DNA of 64,000 nucleotides, from the NCBI RefSeq assembly GCF_002795865.1, contig NZ_CP024920.1, positions 2,701,001-2,765,000 of the forward strand, read 5' to 3'. Source of the stretch: Qipengyuania seohaensis. GTDB taxonomy: Bacteria; Pseudomonadota; Alphaproteobacteria; Sphingomonadales; Sphingomonadaceae. Made by a program: the position numbers and the translations under genes. Under the pieces are notes generated by a model. The model had not been told where the DNA came from, ran no database searches, and was given only the letters and a program-made list of their open reading frames with translations. Below, piece after piece: positions 4,938 to 46,816 of this stretch (position 1 is the stretch's first letter; each line of letters begins with the position of its first letter).

Positions 4938-5689
4938 GCGGCGATTCTTTCGAAAGCTTCGACGGGACCCGCCTTGCCATTCACCGCATCGGCGAAGGCA
5001 GACCGCTGGTCTTGCTTCACGGCCTGTTCTCCAGCGCACAGATGAACTGGATCAAGTTCGGCCATGCCGAAAAGATCGCCTCACGTGGGTATGAGGTCAT
5101 CATGCTCGACTTTCGCGTTCACGGAGACAGCGAAGCCCCGGAAGAGCCAGAGAAGTACCCGCTAAACGTACTGGTGCGGGATGTGGCGGCGCTTGTCGAT
5201 CATCTTGGGCTTGAGGACTATGACCTGGGCGGCTTTTCCCTGGGAGCGCGCACATCGCTCCATGGCGTGGCGCATGGTATCCTCTCGCCAAAGCGGCTGA
5301 TCGTGGGAGGCATGGGCACGGCGGGTCTCGGCGAATGGGGTAAGCGCAGCGCATTCTTCAAGCGCGTGATCGATGAATTCGACACGATCGAGCGCGGCGA
5401 CCCGGCATATTTCTCGATGCAGTTCCTGAAGTCGCAGGGCGTCAATCGCACTGCCGCACGCCTCTTGCTCGACACGATGCCGGATCTCGATCTGGCCATG
5501 CTCGACAATGTTACCATGCCGACGCTGGTGGTTTGCGGCGACGAAGATCGGGACAATGGCTCTGCCGAAGCGCTCGCCGAATTGCTGCCGAACGCGGAGT
5601 ACGCGGAAGTGCCTGGCACGCATATGGGCAGTGTAACCAAGCCCGACCTCGGCATTGCCATGGCTGACTGGCTGGACCGGACACAGTGA
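4934..5689 (+). CDS. Alpha/beta hydrolase
   Basis: 251 residues. Oxyanion-hole HG (LVLLHGLFSS), nucleophile elbow GGFSLGAR (Ser ~residue 105), acid in VVCGDEDRDNG and histidine in PGTHMGSV give a complete catalytic triad in the right order. No signal peptide, so cytoplasmic. ATG at 4934 overlaps the GFA stop (ATGA), and its own stop overlaps the GTG of the next gene. The substrate is not predictable; small esters are typical for this size class. Confidence 0.88.
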   Translation: MSGDSFESFDGTRLAIHRIGEGRPLVLLHGLFSSAQMNWIKFGHAEKIASRGYEVIMLDFRVHGDSEAPEEPEKYPLNVLVRDVAALVDHLGLEDYDLGGFSLGARTSLHGVAHGILSPKRLIVGGMGTAGLGEWGKRSAFFKRVIDEFDTIERGDPAYFSMQFLKSQGVNRTAARLLLDTMPDLDLAMLDNVTMPTLVVCGDEDRDNGSAEALAELLPNAEYAEVPGTHMGSVTKPDLGIAMADWLDRTQ

Positions 5690-6207
5690 AAGCGGCTGTC
5701 CGATACTGGTGGATTATCTGGCTTTTCGGCCTGTTCGTTTTTGCGCTCCTGCGCATACCCCACGGGCCTTTGGCCATTCCGGAAGTTCCAGGCGGAATTT
5801 TCGACCATCAGGCGGCCGGCACCGCCGCCGAGGTAAACCGGATCCAGCAGGCGTGGAGCGATGCCGGATTGCTTGGTCACGCACGCTGGGGAATGATCGG
5901 TGACTTCCTCTTTATCGGATTGTACGGCTTGGGCTCGGTCCTCGGAGGCGTATCCTTCCGCCAAGCTGGAAGCGGCTTCCTCAGGGTAGCGGGGCTGCTC
6001 GTCGCGGTCGCAGGTGCCATATTCCTTTTTACGGATTACGCAGAGACTATCGCGCAGTTCATCCAGCTGACCTCGATGCGGGGTGACGACGGCCTTGCGA
6101 GCCTGGCGGCGACGATGCAGCCAATCAAGATGGTCGCGTTCGGAGTAAGCTTCCTCGGAACATTGGCCCTGCTTGTCATTCGACGAATGAAAGCTCGAGC
6201 GGGTTGA
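5686..6207 (+). CDS. Hypothetical four-helix membrane protein
   Basis: 173 residues from a GTG start at 5686 overlapping the hydrolase stop (GTGA). About four hydrophobic helices: near the N-terminus (WWIIWLFGLFVFALL), then around residues 65-85, 95-115 and 145-165, with a ~40-residue extracytoplasmic segment after the first. I recognise no family motif. It ends the coupled run that begins near 3.8 kb. Confidence 0.72.
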   Translation: MKAAVRYWWIIWLFGLFVFALLRIPHGPLAIPEVPGGIFDHQAAGTAAEVNRIQQAWSDAGLLGHARWGMIGDFLFIGLYGLGSVLGGVSFRQAGSGFLRVAGLLVAVAGAIFLFTDYAETIAQFIQLTSMRGDDGLASLAATMQPIKMVAFGVSFLGTLALLVIRRMKARAG

Positions 6208-44046: not shown

Positions 44047-44067
44047 AGCGGGTCAATCCCGGCATCG

Positions 44068-44101
44068 AAAAGGGCGCCATGGAAACGCGGCGCCTTTTTT
44101 C
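44068..44101 (+). terminator. Rho-independent terminator after bamD
   Basis: GGCGCC (44073-44078) and GGCGCC (44089-44094), a palindromic 6-bp all-GC stem with a 10-base loop, followed by six T residues and preceded by an A-run. It lies 27 bases past the bamD stop and isolates the nhaA region downstream. Confidence 0.85.
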
Positions 44102-44194
44102 TTGCCTGAAATCGGGATCTTATGGATCCCGCGCAAAAAATTCTCCGAAACCTTGAAACCAGATCGATCCGGTCGCATTTAGTTACTGCGGACC

Positions 44195-44315
44195 GGGCCC
44201 CTCTGGCGTGCACGAGAAAGTGCACGTGATGTCGGACCGCATCGGACAACCGATGCGTGCTGGCAGGCCCTTTCCCCTCCCCCTCCCAGCCTCCCAGCGC
44301 CATCGGGTGTCCGAT
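44195..44315 (+). ncRNA. Three-way-junction RNA leader upstream of the DUF465/nhaA/terC genes, candidate riboswitch
   Basis: P1 pairs GGGCC (44195-44199) with GGCCC (44266-44270). Inside it are two perfect hairpins: CGTGCAC/GTGCACG (44207-44226, six-base loop) and CGCATCGG/CCGATGCG (44238-44257, four-base loop). A C-rich, G-poor stretch follows (44271-44300), then a hairpin ATCGG/CCGAT (44302-44315) whose CCGAT could instead pair with ATCGG of the second hairpin. It sits after the bamD terminator and 30 bases before a coding start. The nhaA-I and nhaA-II motif RNAs, reported as lithium-responsive, occur before nhaA genes; I could not confirm a match. Confidence 0.55.
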
Positions 44316-44344
44316 CGACATAAGCCTCGATCACGGAGACTACG

Positions 44345-44518
44345 ATGACGGCCCGTACTTACAGACTGACGCAAATCCACCAGCGGATCGACGAGCGCTT
44401 GCGCCTCGAATTGCGCAAACGCGCACCCGACGGGATGGAGATTTCTCGTCTGAAGAAGATGAAATTGCGCGCGAAAGACGCGCTCTATCGCATGGCCAAG
44501 CGCGCCAAGCCTGCCTGA
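44345..44518 (+). CDS. Small DUF465 (YdcH-like) protein
   Basis: 57 residues. The segment RLTQIHQRIDERLRLELRK ... EISRLKKMKLRAKDALYRM has the 'H..LD..I ... LKk.KL.lKD' layout of DUF465/YdcH proteins, which form helical hairpins and have no known function. ATG at 44345 has CGGAG eight bases upstream. It sits between the RNA leader and nhaA, so it may be the first gene of that unit. Confidence 0.78.
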   Translation: MTARTYRLTQIHQRIDERLRLELRKRAPDGMEISRLKKMKLRAKDALYRMAKRAKPA

Positions 44519-44606: not shown

Positions 44607-45797
44607 ATGGTCAAAGCCATCGCCCCCATGTTGCGCGACTTCCTGCAAAAGGAATCTGCAGGCGGTATCGTCCTGATCTTTGCGGCGCTGCTGGCCTTGG
44701 CGGTTGCCAATTCGCCCTTGCTATCCGCCTATCAGGATGGGCTCGCGACTCCGGTGGTGTTCGGCGTTGGCGGCTTCGTCATCGACAAGCCATTGCTCCT
44801 GTGGATCAACGACGGCCTGATGGCCGTTTTCTTCTTCCTCGTCGGCCTCGAGGTGAAGCGCGAGATTTTCGAAGGCCAGTTGTCGAGCTGGGACAAGGCC
44901 TCGCTCCCGCTCATCGCCGCAATCGGCGGGATGGCGATCCCGGCTGTCATCTTCCTGGCGCTCAATGAGAACTCGCCTGAAAGCATCAATGGCTGGGCCA
45001 TTCCGGCTGCGACCGATATCGCGTTTGCGCTCGGTATCCTCTCGCTGCTCGGCTCGCGCGTTCCTGTCGCGCTCAAGGCGCTGCTACTGGCCATTGCAGT
45101 GATCGACGACATCGGTGCGATTGCGATCATTGCGCTTTTCTATTCGGGCGAACTGGACACCGGCATGCTCGGCCTTGCCGCGATCGTGTTCGTCGCGATG
45201 CTGGCGATCGGACGGGCCAAGGTCCAGTCCACCATCCCCTATATTCTCCTTGCCATCCTGATGTGGGCCTTCGTCCTCAAATCGGGCGTCCACGCAACGC
45301 TTGCAGGCGTCGCTGCCGCAATGACGGTGCCGCTCGATACAAAGAGCGATCACGGGCCGCTCGAGACGATGGAGCATGCACTCCACCCGTGGGTGGCGTT
45401 CCTCGTGATCCCGATTTTCGGCTTTGCCAATGCGGGTGTCACCTTGTTCGGCCTGTCGCCTTCCGCGCTGCTCGAACCGTTGCCCCTGGGCATCGCGCTC
45501 GGCCTGCTGATCGGCAAGCAGATCGGCATCTTCGGCTTTGCATTTGCGGCCGTGAAACTGGGGCTGGCGAACCTACCGGAAGAGGTGAACTGGGCGCAGG
45601 TCCATGCCATGAGCCTGCTTGCCGCGATCGGTTTCACGATGAGCCTCTTTATCGGCAATCTGGCCTTCGCATCGCCGGAGCAGATCGACGCGGTGAAGAT
45701 CGGCGTGCTGTCCGGCTCGACCATTGCGGCGCTGGCCGGCTATCTCCTCCTCAAGCGCGCACTGCCCAAGGCAGGCGCTAGCGAAAGCATCGCGTGA
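44607..45797 (+). CDS. nhaA: Na+/H+ antiporter NhaA
   Basis: 396 residues with about twelve transmembrane segments. The ion-binding aspartates are in AATDIAFALGILSLLGSRVP and AIAVIDDIGAIAIIALFYS (the paired Asp of helix V), and DGLMAVFFFLVGLEVKREI is conserved. It exchanges Na+ or Li+ for protons at alkaline pH. Start ATG 44607 follows CGGAGTAAACC. Its stop overlaps the terC start (TGATG). A structured leader lies upstream. Confidence 0.97.
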   Translation: MVKAIAPMLRDFLQKESAGGIVLIFAALLALAVANSPLLSAYQDGLATPVVFGVGGFVIDKPLLLWINDGLMAVFFFLVGLEVKREIFEGQLSSWDKASLPLIAAIGGMAIPAVIFLALNENSPESINGWAIPAATDIAFALGILSLLGSRVPVALKALLLAIAVIDDIGAIAIIALFYSGELDTGMLGLAAIVFVAMLAIGRAKVQSTIPYILLAILMWAFVLKSGVHATLAGVAAAMTVPLDTKSDHGPLETMEHALHPWVAFLVIPIFGFANAGVTLFGLSPSALLEPLPLGIALGLLIGKQIGIFGFAFAAVKLGLANLPEEVNWAQVHAMSLLAAIGFTMSLFIGNLAFASPEQIDAVKIGVLSGSTIAALAGYLLLKRALPKAGASESIA

Positions 45798-46816
45798 TGG
45801 ATTTTCTCTTCGCCGACTGGCTGGGAACGCCGACCTGGTTCTGGATGGCGTTCATGGCCATCGTGATCGTGCTGACCGCGTTCGACCTTGGCGTGCTTCA
45901 CAAGGAGGACAAGGAACTCGGCATCGCCGAAAGCCTCAAGCTTTCCGTATTCTATATCGGGGTCGCACTGCTGTTCGGCGCCTGGGTGTGGCTGGAACGC
46001 GGGCCGACCGCAGGGATGGAATATTACACCGGCTTCTTCATCGAAAAGGCGCTGTCGATCGACAACGTCTTCGTGATCAGCCTCATCTTCACCTATTTCG
46101 CGATCCCTGCGAAATATCAGTACCGCGCGCTGTTGTGGGGCATCATGGCGGTAATCGTGCTGCGCGGCATGATGATCGCGGGCGGGGCGGCGCTGCTGGC
46201 AGAGGCTTACTGGGTGCTCTACCTGTTTGCAGCCTTCCTGATCGTCACCGGCATCAAGATGTTCTTTGCCGGGGACGAGGCGATGGACGTCGGCAAGAAC
46301 CCCATTATCCGCTGGATCAGCACGCATATGCGCGTGACGAAGGAGCTGCATGCCCAGCGCTTCTTCGTGAAGGTCGAGGATGAAAAGACGGGCCGCATGG
46401 TGCGCGCGGCAACGCCCCTGTTCCTGGCGCTGGTCGTAATCAACCTCGCCGATCTCGTCTTCGCGCTCGATAGCGTGCCGGCGATCTTCGCGATCACGAC
46501 CGACACATTTATCGTCTATACGTCGAACATCTTCGCGATCCTTGGCCTTCGCGCACTGTATTTCGCGCTCGCGGCGATGATCCACCGCTTCCACTACCTC
46601 AAATACGCCCTGGCGGCGGTGCTGGTGTTCATCGGAAGCAAGATCTTCGTCACGGACTTCCTGCTGGATGGCGGCAAGATGCCCGCGTGGATCAGCCTCG
46701 GGGTGACCTTTGGCCTCATCGCGGCCGGCGTGCTCTACTCGCTGTGGAAGACACGCGGGCACGAGGAAAAGGACTGGCCTGCCGAAGCTGTTGCTAACGG
46801 AACAAAGGGTGGATGA
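45797..46816 (+). CDS. TerC family membrane protein (Alx-like)
   Basis: 339 residues with about nine helices. TAFDLGVLHKEDKELGI, FIEKALSIDNVFVISLIF and LADLVFALDSVPAIFAIT are the TerC/Alx metal-site signatures. Alx-type proteins are linked to alkaline pH and manganese export; pairing with nhaA suggests joint control of pH/cation homeostasis. ATG 45797 overlaps the nhaA stop; a GTG one codon earlier is also possible. The manganese yybP-ykoY riboswitch that precedes alx in some bacteria was not recognised here. Confidence 0.93.
   Translation: MDFLFADWLGTPTWFWMAFMAIVIVLTAFDLGVLHKEDKELGIAESLKLSVFYIGVALLFGAWVWLERGPTAGMEYYTGFFIEKALSIDNVFVISLIFTYFAIPAKYQYRALLWGIMAVIVLRGMMIAGGAALLAEAYWVLYLFAAFLIVTGIKMFFAGDEAMDVGKNPIIRWISTHMRVTKELHAQRFFVKVEDEKTGRMVRAATPLFLALVVINLADLVFALDSVPAIFAITTDTFIVYTSNIFAILGLRALYFALAAMIHRFHYLKYALAAVLVFIGSKIFVTDFLLDGGKMPAWISLGVTFGLIAAGVLYSLWKTRGHEEKDWPAEAVANGTKGG

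Follow-up and report, generated by a model that had tools for sequence, protein, structure and literature searches.

A terC RNA heads a DUF465-nhaA-terC operon and may act as a two-state switch linked to pH or inorganic carbon

The stretch of DNA analyzed here (the window, 64 kb) contains a leader followed by three genes on the same strand:

44345..44518, + strand: DUF465 gene, 57 aa (PF04325, E 5.5e-8)
44607..45797, + strand: nhaA (PF06965, E 4.5e-144)
45797..46816, + strand: terC/alx-type gene (PF03741; TIGR03718, 389.6 bits against a cut-off of 246.4)

The ATG of the terC/alx-type gene (45797) overlaps the nhaA stop codon. The DUF465 protein is presumably YdcH-like. Further upstream, a terminator-like hairpin with a T-run is visible at 44073-44100, as a sequence-only reading of this stretch had described. 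The same reading took the leader for a riboswitch-like RNA of the nhaA-I or nhaA-II type, or else of a new class.

We compared the window with the Rfam covariance models. Using cmscan, positions 44185..44244 on the + strand matched terC RNA (RF03067) at 63.7 bits, the curated cut-off being 39.9, over model positions 1-59 of 59, and this was the sole Rfam match above cut-off within the whole window. Under permissive settings, RF03067 matched the interval 44050-44450 at E 5.7e-11, and the nhaA-I, nhaA-II and yybP-ykoY models gave no match to this interval at E up to 10. RF00080 (yybP-ykoY) also had no match in the genome of the window under stricter filters. Membership of the leader in any of these three families was therefore rejected. 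P1 and P2 are present together with the conserved internal loop GCCCCUCUG / GAUG, as RF03067 requires, and the leader lies upstream of, and co-directional with, DUF465-nhaA-terC, as expected of this cis-regulatory family. Judged by its sequence, the leader is a genuine, ordinary terC RNA, a member of a known orphan family; it is structured, but it is neither an nhaA-I nor an nhaA-II RNA. Nor is the class new, being already in Rfam. The terC motif was reportedly first described by Weinberg and others in Nucleic Acids Research in 2017.

A lithium (or sodium) riboswitch of the nhaA-I or nhaA-II class would suit the nhaA gene of the operon, and one study describes Li+ riboswitches as commonly controlling nhaA (PMC9646797). 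However, besides the missing model matches, NhaA was found behind a terC RNA for just three genes (G000, G014, G054) in 59 genomes, which hold 68 NhaA match rows, some of them fragments. The second nhaA of the window's own genome (G000) is not behind a terC RNA. We therefore give this explanation almost no chance. The class assignment of the sequence-only reading was wrong, and its functional intuition, a riboswitch-like leader before cation/proton exchange genes, was reasonable and is supported by the results below.

The conserved part of the leader consists of two stems around a near-invariant core:

44187..44195, + strand: P1, 5′ strand, pairing with 44233-44241; covariation in 93 sequences and 238 copies
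44193..44205, + strand: core, first half, CCGGGCCCCTCTG; near-invariant, exact in 230 of 238 copies, half of which came from a pattern scan that required the core bases CCGGGCCCCTCTG and GATGTCGG
44206..44227, + strand: P2 hairpin, 7 bp and a G-U; changes on both sides in 7 of its 8 pairs
44228-44235, + strand: core, second half, GATGTCGG; exact in 235 of the same 238 copies
44233..44241, + strand: P1, 3′ strand, with 44238-44241 common to P1 and P3; covariation in 93 sequences and 238 copies

Of the 119 copies that the covariance model detected, 108 have an exact core in both halves. To assess covariation, 93 cores were aligned, roughly half of the 185 distinct ones with a loop length of 16-26. 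In this alignment P1 and P2 jointly showed 85% standard pairs, and 330 cells were changed on both sides, compared with 117 ± 10 after shuffling and at most 98 in slid structures. Across the 238 copies, pair 7-52 (Rfam numbering) was formed in 219 (150 expected if independent) and pair 5-54 in 178 (108 expected). Compensatory changes in the stems are thus numerous among relatives. Of the 238 copies, 123 have G-A or A-A at P1 position 8-51 and 87 have U-A; the leader of the window has an A-A mismatch there (44192/44236). This non-standard opposition adjoins the near-invariant core and could belong to a ligand site. Both 44170-44344 and 44187-44344 were more stable than all of 200 dinucleotide shuffles (z -5.4 and -4.3, respectively).

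Both hairpins that had been described as perfect are present in the sequence, one of 7 bp at 44207-44213/44220-44226 and one of 8 bp at 44238-44245/44250-44257. Their arrangement in a stable three-way junction was not confirmed, as the covarying helix P1 encloses the first hairpin alone and overlaps the second by four bases. As for the outer helix proposed at 44195-44199/44266-44270, the complementarity exists, but one strand lies in the near-invariant core and is outside the reach of covariation. Eight short patterns behind the second hairpin were picked after inspecting the sequences. Among them, GG[CT]CC occurred in 23 of the 52 long leaders (at most 15 in 200 shuffles), and GGGCC was not enriched (1 of 52). 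GG[CT]CC could be used in the proposed outer helix or in an anti-P1 pairing.

The core could also be a protein or small-RNA site, or sense temperature or pH directly, instead of being a ligand-binding aptamer. As far as our literature search reached, no ligand has been reported for terC RNA, and a search linking riboswitch, carbonic anhydrase and Rfam returned nothing on terC RNA in titles and abstracts. The core bases CCCCUCU can pair with Shine-Dalgarno sequences, and this pairing appears in the fold of 44170-44344. However, a single small internal loop, near-invariant on both sides, between freely covarying stems has the typical look of an aptamer. Moreover, the family spans Alphaproteobacteria as well as Pseudomonas and Arenimonas records, so that a protein partner would need an equal spread. 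Such a site or direct sensor is, in our judgement, improbable.

Two promoter-like elements precede the core:

44153..44158, + strand: -35-like element TTGAAA; TTG[ACT] is conserved upstream of the core
44176..44181, + strand: -10-like element CATTTA; an A/T-rich element is conserved at matching spacing

In 174 of 238 copies a TTG[ACT] precedes the core by 34-47 nt, compared with 21-30 copies in each of five control windows. A/T content is raised 13-18 nt before the core, and in 182 aligned copies the A/T-rich element keeps a constant distance from TTG that equals the spacing of a -10 box. Most relatives carry a promoter-like element immediately before the RNA. Transcription is therefore likely to begin near 44187 (give or take a few bases), which is the 5′ end of P1, rather than downstream of 44270.

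The RF03067 model is followed in the leader by a candidate expression platform that reaches to the first gene:

44238..44257, + strand: P3 hairpin, 8 bp, read from the sequence; alternative to extended P1 and to a long-range helix
44297..44317, + strand: segment Y, able to form 19 base pairs with the P3 region (44238-44258)
44313..44332, + strand: P5 hairpin (44313-44318/44327-44332), from the sequence and a constrained fold of the leader
44335..44338, + strand: Shine-Dalgarno GGAG of the DUF465 gene

Because the P1 3′ strand overlaps P3 at 44238-44241, complete P1 and complete P3 are mutually exclusive. Y is a downstream segment able to pair with the second hairpin, as had been noticed from the letters. 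P5 overlaps Y, and its extension can reach into the ribosome-binding site. Specific pairings were tested in 52 long and 120 short leaders; a further 22 of the 194 leaders with a confident start fell in neither class and were omitted. P3 of at least 4 bp was found in all 52 long leaders, which had been selected for a P3-like 5′ arm directly behind the core. In a specific-pairing test, which like that on the short leaders and the comparison of states below was chosen after a negative accessibility test, the P3 region paired with its own downstream leader at -22.7 kcal/mol, compared with -17.3 for other loci and -18.6 for the lowest of 200 permuted means (n = 52). These values indicate that the long-range P3-Y pairing is co-adapted within loci, which would fit a switch between two states at the ribosome-binding site.

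Extension of P1 moved the balance between P3 and the long-range helix by a mean of 5.0 kcal/mol toward the latter, positive in 41 of 46 leaders, a coupling that is partly built in through the overlap of the strands. The mean difference of P3 minus long-range in these 46 leaders was +1.2 kcal/mol with P1 extended and -3.8 with P1 blocked. For the leader of the window with 20 coding bases, the values were -1.7 and -7.1 kcal/mol, P3 being ahead in both; 44187-44344, lacking coding sequence, folded into P1 and the long-range helix with the ribosome site open. The long-range state was the more open at the ribosome site in 44 of 52 long leaders, and the excess in openness over shuffles was modest (0.154 vs. 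0.121, p = 0.005, n = 42). When P1 was simply forced or blocked, the resulting difference in ribosome-site accessibility did not exceed that in linker shuffles (0.056 vs. 0.054, n = 186), and the leader of the window went in the opposite direction (0.40 with P1, 0.63 without). Among the short leaders, pairing of the P1 3′ strand was slightly stronger with its own ribosome-site region (-10.96) than with others (-9.96) or in the lowest permutation (-10.57), with a median rank of the own pairing of just 49.5 of 120. No such signal between P1 3′ strand and ribosome site was seen in the long leaders (-5.42 vs. -5.45).

The stretch at about 44266-44297 is C-rich and G-poor, as previously described, and the linker of the window has 22 C and 5 G in 36 nt. 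This composition would agree with Rho-dependent termination in the linker, the switch between P3 and the long-range helix gating the access of Rho. In 48 long leaders the mean linker content is 0.39 for C and 0.26 for G, with C above G in 37, so that a C-rich linker is only weakly general. The C excess is thus weak on average and missing from some leaders. In addition, the 3′ end of the platform lies near the ribosome site, with Y ending 7-34 nt upstream of the start codon in 48 of 52 long leaders. The ribosome-site results leave room for Rho, to which we assign a low probability.

To see which genes the family accompanies, we sampled genomes at two levels. terC RNA was present in 33 of 59 genomes of the Sphingomonadaceae sample (one per genus), in 52 of 385 genomes of the class sample, and in at least 119 stretches of the genome collection, Pseudomonas and Arenimonas records included. 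Gene calls behind the RNAs were mechanical, from ORFs and BLAST clusters, with 16 loci labelled by hand, and families were named by Pfam or NCBIfam scans of representatives. A BLAST-conserved ORF lay downstream of 220 of 239 copies. The tally took 48 of 49 places of the family sample and 71 of 72 new places of the class sample. The first genes in the family sample (48) were DUF465 (13), TerC-like (9), alpha-carbonic anhydrase (7), Zn-ribbon (4), Bax1-I (4), iota-like carbonic anhydrase (3), beta-carbonic anhydrase (2), Na/Ca exchanger (2), NhaA (1) and other or unknown (3). In the class sample (71) they were TerC-like (50), DUF4112 (6) and others (15), which include one beta-carbonic anhydrase (L217) in genome G381, a further member of the window's family. 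The pattern scan (120 listed copies) gave TerC-like (63), DUF465 (16) and others (41), among them three iota-like carbonic anhydrases (L070, L106, L140), one MnhE and four copies with no gene before the contig end.

By BLAST cluster, DUF465 often comes first after a terC RNA (28 of 220), and the RNA is directly followed by a small Zn-ribbon (TFIIB-type) protein in 10 of 220 (L017, L010, L130 and others). In a few loci the gene of the latter is adjoined by TerC, Tim44-like, DUF465 or Bax1-I genes. Back-to-back divergent pairs of terC RNAs were seen in L161 (G097), L170 (G186) and G185:C157; in L161 and L170 one RNA drives a TerC gene and its partner a DUF4112 gene. Tandem regulation is possible at L129, where two terC RNAs precede a TerC gene (5352-5748), and at G017:C1:2847271-2850183 (L179), with three matches, one of them below cut-off, within 3 kb.

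Carbonic anhydrases of three types recur behind the RNA. The genome of the window has two terC RNAs above cut-off, the second of which (G000:C1:2622671-2622724, - strand, locus L002) is the leader of an alpha-carbonic anhydrase whose N-terminus reads as a signal peptide. The 59 genomes hold 11 alpha-carbonic anhydrase genes. Eight of them follow a terC RNA, seven directly and the eighth in an operon DUF465-nhaA-alpha-carbonic anhydrase (G014); the remaining three are in two genomes with no terC RNA match (G005, G015). Half of the eight strong iota-like matches are also behind a terC RNA, three directly (G054, G018, G041) and one in an operon DUF465-terC-iota (G047), and the other four are not; a ninth, weak match was excluded from this count, and the label itself comes from NCBIfam matches below cut-off (114.8 vs. 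350 bits). Beta-carbonic anhydrase matches, by comparison, were directly behind a terC RNA in just 2 of 86 cases (G006, G010). A TAT-signal model matches the G006 protein (L012) but not the G010 protein (L188), the start of which resembles a signal peptide. In two loci beyond the family (L155, L163), beta-carbonic anhydrase is the next conserved gene after TerC. Carbonic anhydrases were seen as first genes in the window's family and in three pattern-scan records (L070 Erythrobacter, L106 Altererythrobacter, and L140), so they may have joined the regulon locally.

The frequency of carbonic anhydrase and ion-transport genes behind terC RNA relatives hints at a signal related to pH or carbon dioxide. 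Alternatively, the RNA could respond to a divalent metal, Mn2+ or perhaps Zn2+ or Ca2+, as an alphaproteobacterial counterpart of yybP-ykoY for TerC transporters and exported metalloenzymes. TerC-like genes are indeed the commonest first genes (122 of 239), and the TerC of the window is of the type that NCBIfam names R_switched_Alx. VIT1 (as second gene), a P-type ATPase and a Na/Ca exchanger were found behind terC RNAs as well, and the TerC-dominated class sample (50 of 71) is, taken alone, equally compatible with a metal signal. Three papers link TerC proteins to Mn export or to the metalation of exported enzymes (PMC10550928, PMC12096827, PMC13274385).

Several observations argue against a metal signal. 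The Mn riboswitch RF00080 coexists with terC RNA: at E up to 0.001, and uncorrected for kinship, terC RNA was found in 52 of the 385 genomes, RF00080 in 56 and both in 25 (above cut-offs, 51 and 42 genomes, respectively). A complementary distribution of the two RNAs was rejected on account of these 25 genomes. Moreover, no TerC-like ORF was detected by BLAST, with a working control, at 20 RF00080 loci, and six proteins from RF00080 loci had no match among the ORFs behind terC RNAs. A Pfam check of four of these six proteins gave three GDT1 and one MntP. NhaA, MnhE and carbonic anhydrases are, to our knowledge, atypical Mn genes, which also counts against a metal. Antiporters, Alx-type TerC, unrelated carbonic anhydrases, the Na/Ca exchanger and Bax1-I together lead us to favor pH or inorganic carbon over Mn2+, and we consider metal sensing unlikely.

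Our main reading, to which we assign a probability of roughly 0.5, is that terC RNA combines an aptamer-like domain with a bistable platform and answers a signal linked to alkaline pH or inorganic carbon. It builds on the membership in the family, the covarying stems, the position, the genes associated with the RNA and the alternative pairing that is co-adapted within loci; ligand binding, polarity and the nature of the signal are what we infer from them. The DUF465-nhaA-terC mRNA would begin with the small aptamer-like domain, with the bistable platform behind it. The signal would stabilize P1 and thereby disfavor full P3. With P1 formed, the P3 region would pair with Y (44297-44317), breaking P5 and opening the ribosome-binding site (ON). 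In the absence of the signal, P3 would form and leave Y free, and P5 with its extension would mask the ribosome-binding site (OFF). P1 formed is most likely the ON state, and as signal we regard something linked to alkaline pH or to inorganic carbon as most likely, be it bicarbonate/carbonate or an effect of high pH. A broader reading, possible yet on balance doubtful, makes terC RNA a natural pH or bicarbonate/carbonate riboswitch class and the master switch of an alkaline/inorganic-carbon regulon in Alphaproteobacteria, which would comprise TerC/Alx, Na+/H+ antiporters and three unrelated types of carbonic anhydrase and work through the competition of P1, P3 and the long-range helix.

The family itself was already known; its regulon is informative, and the candidate platform lies beyond the Rfam model. 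With alpha-, beta- and iota-like carbonic anhydrases in the regulon together with TerC and Na+/H+ antiporters, the ligand candidates shrink to a short, testable list, and two terC RNAs in one genome, before an antiporter operon and a carbonic anhydrase, are two ready constructs. In Box 4 of a 2022 review, the absence of a reported proton-responsive riboswitch is called surprising (PMC10043782). A ligand test would therefore be informative whichever way it turns out.

Compared with known systems, the leader is closest to terC RNA as described by RF03067, with which it shares the full model match, the core bases, P1 and P2, and the position before a protein gene. The operon here likewise contains terC, but DUF465 and nhaA come first and terC only third. 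The Rfam model stops at 44244, whereas the P3/Y/P5 platform of the leader lies mostly outside it. The nhaA-I and nhaA-II (Li+-I, Li+-II) and DUF1646 (Na+-I) riboswitches have the nhaA neighborhood in common with the leader, but the leader matches none of their models at E up to 10. The yybP-ykoY (Mn2+) riboswitch and the alx pH-responsive element also control TerC/Alx genes, in other bacteria; yybP-ykoY does not match the leader, and its 20 alphaproteobacterial loci lack a TerC-like gene. The active structure of the alx leader forms when transcription occurs in alkaline conditions (PMC3874183), and manganese and alkaline pH act jointly on the E. coli mntP riboswitch of the yybP-ykoY family (PMC9603457).
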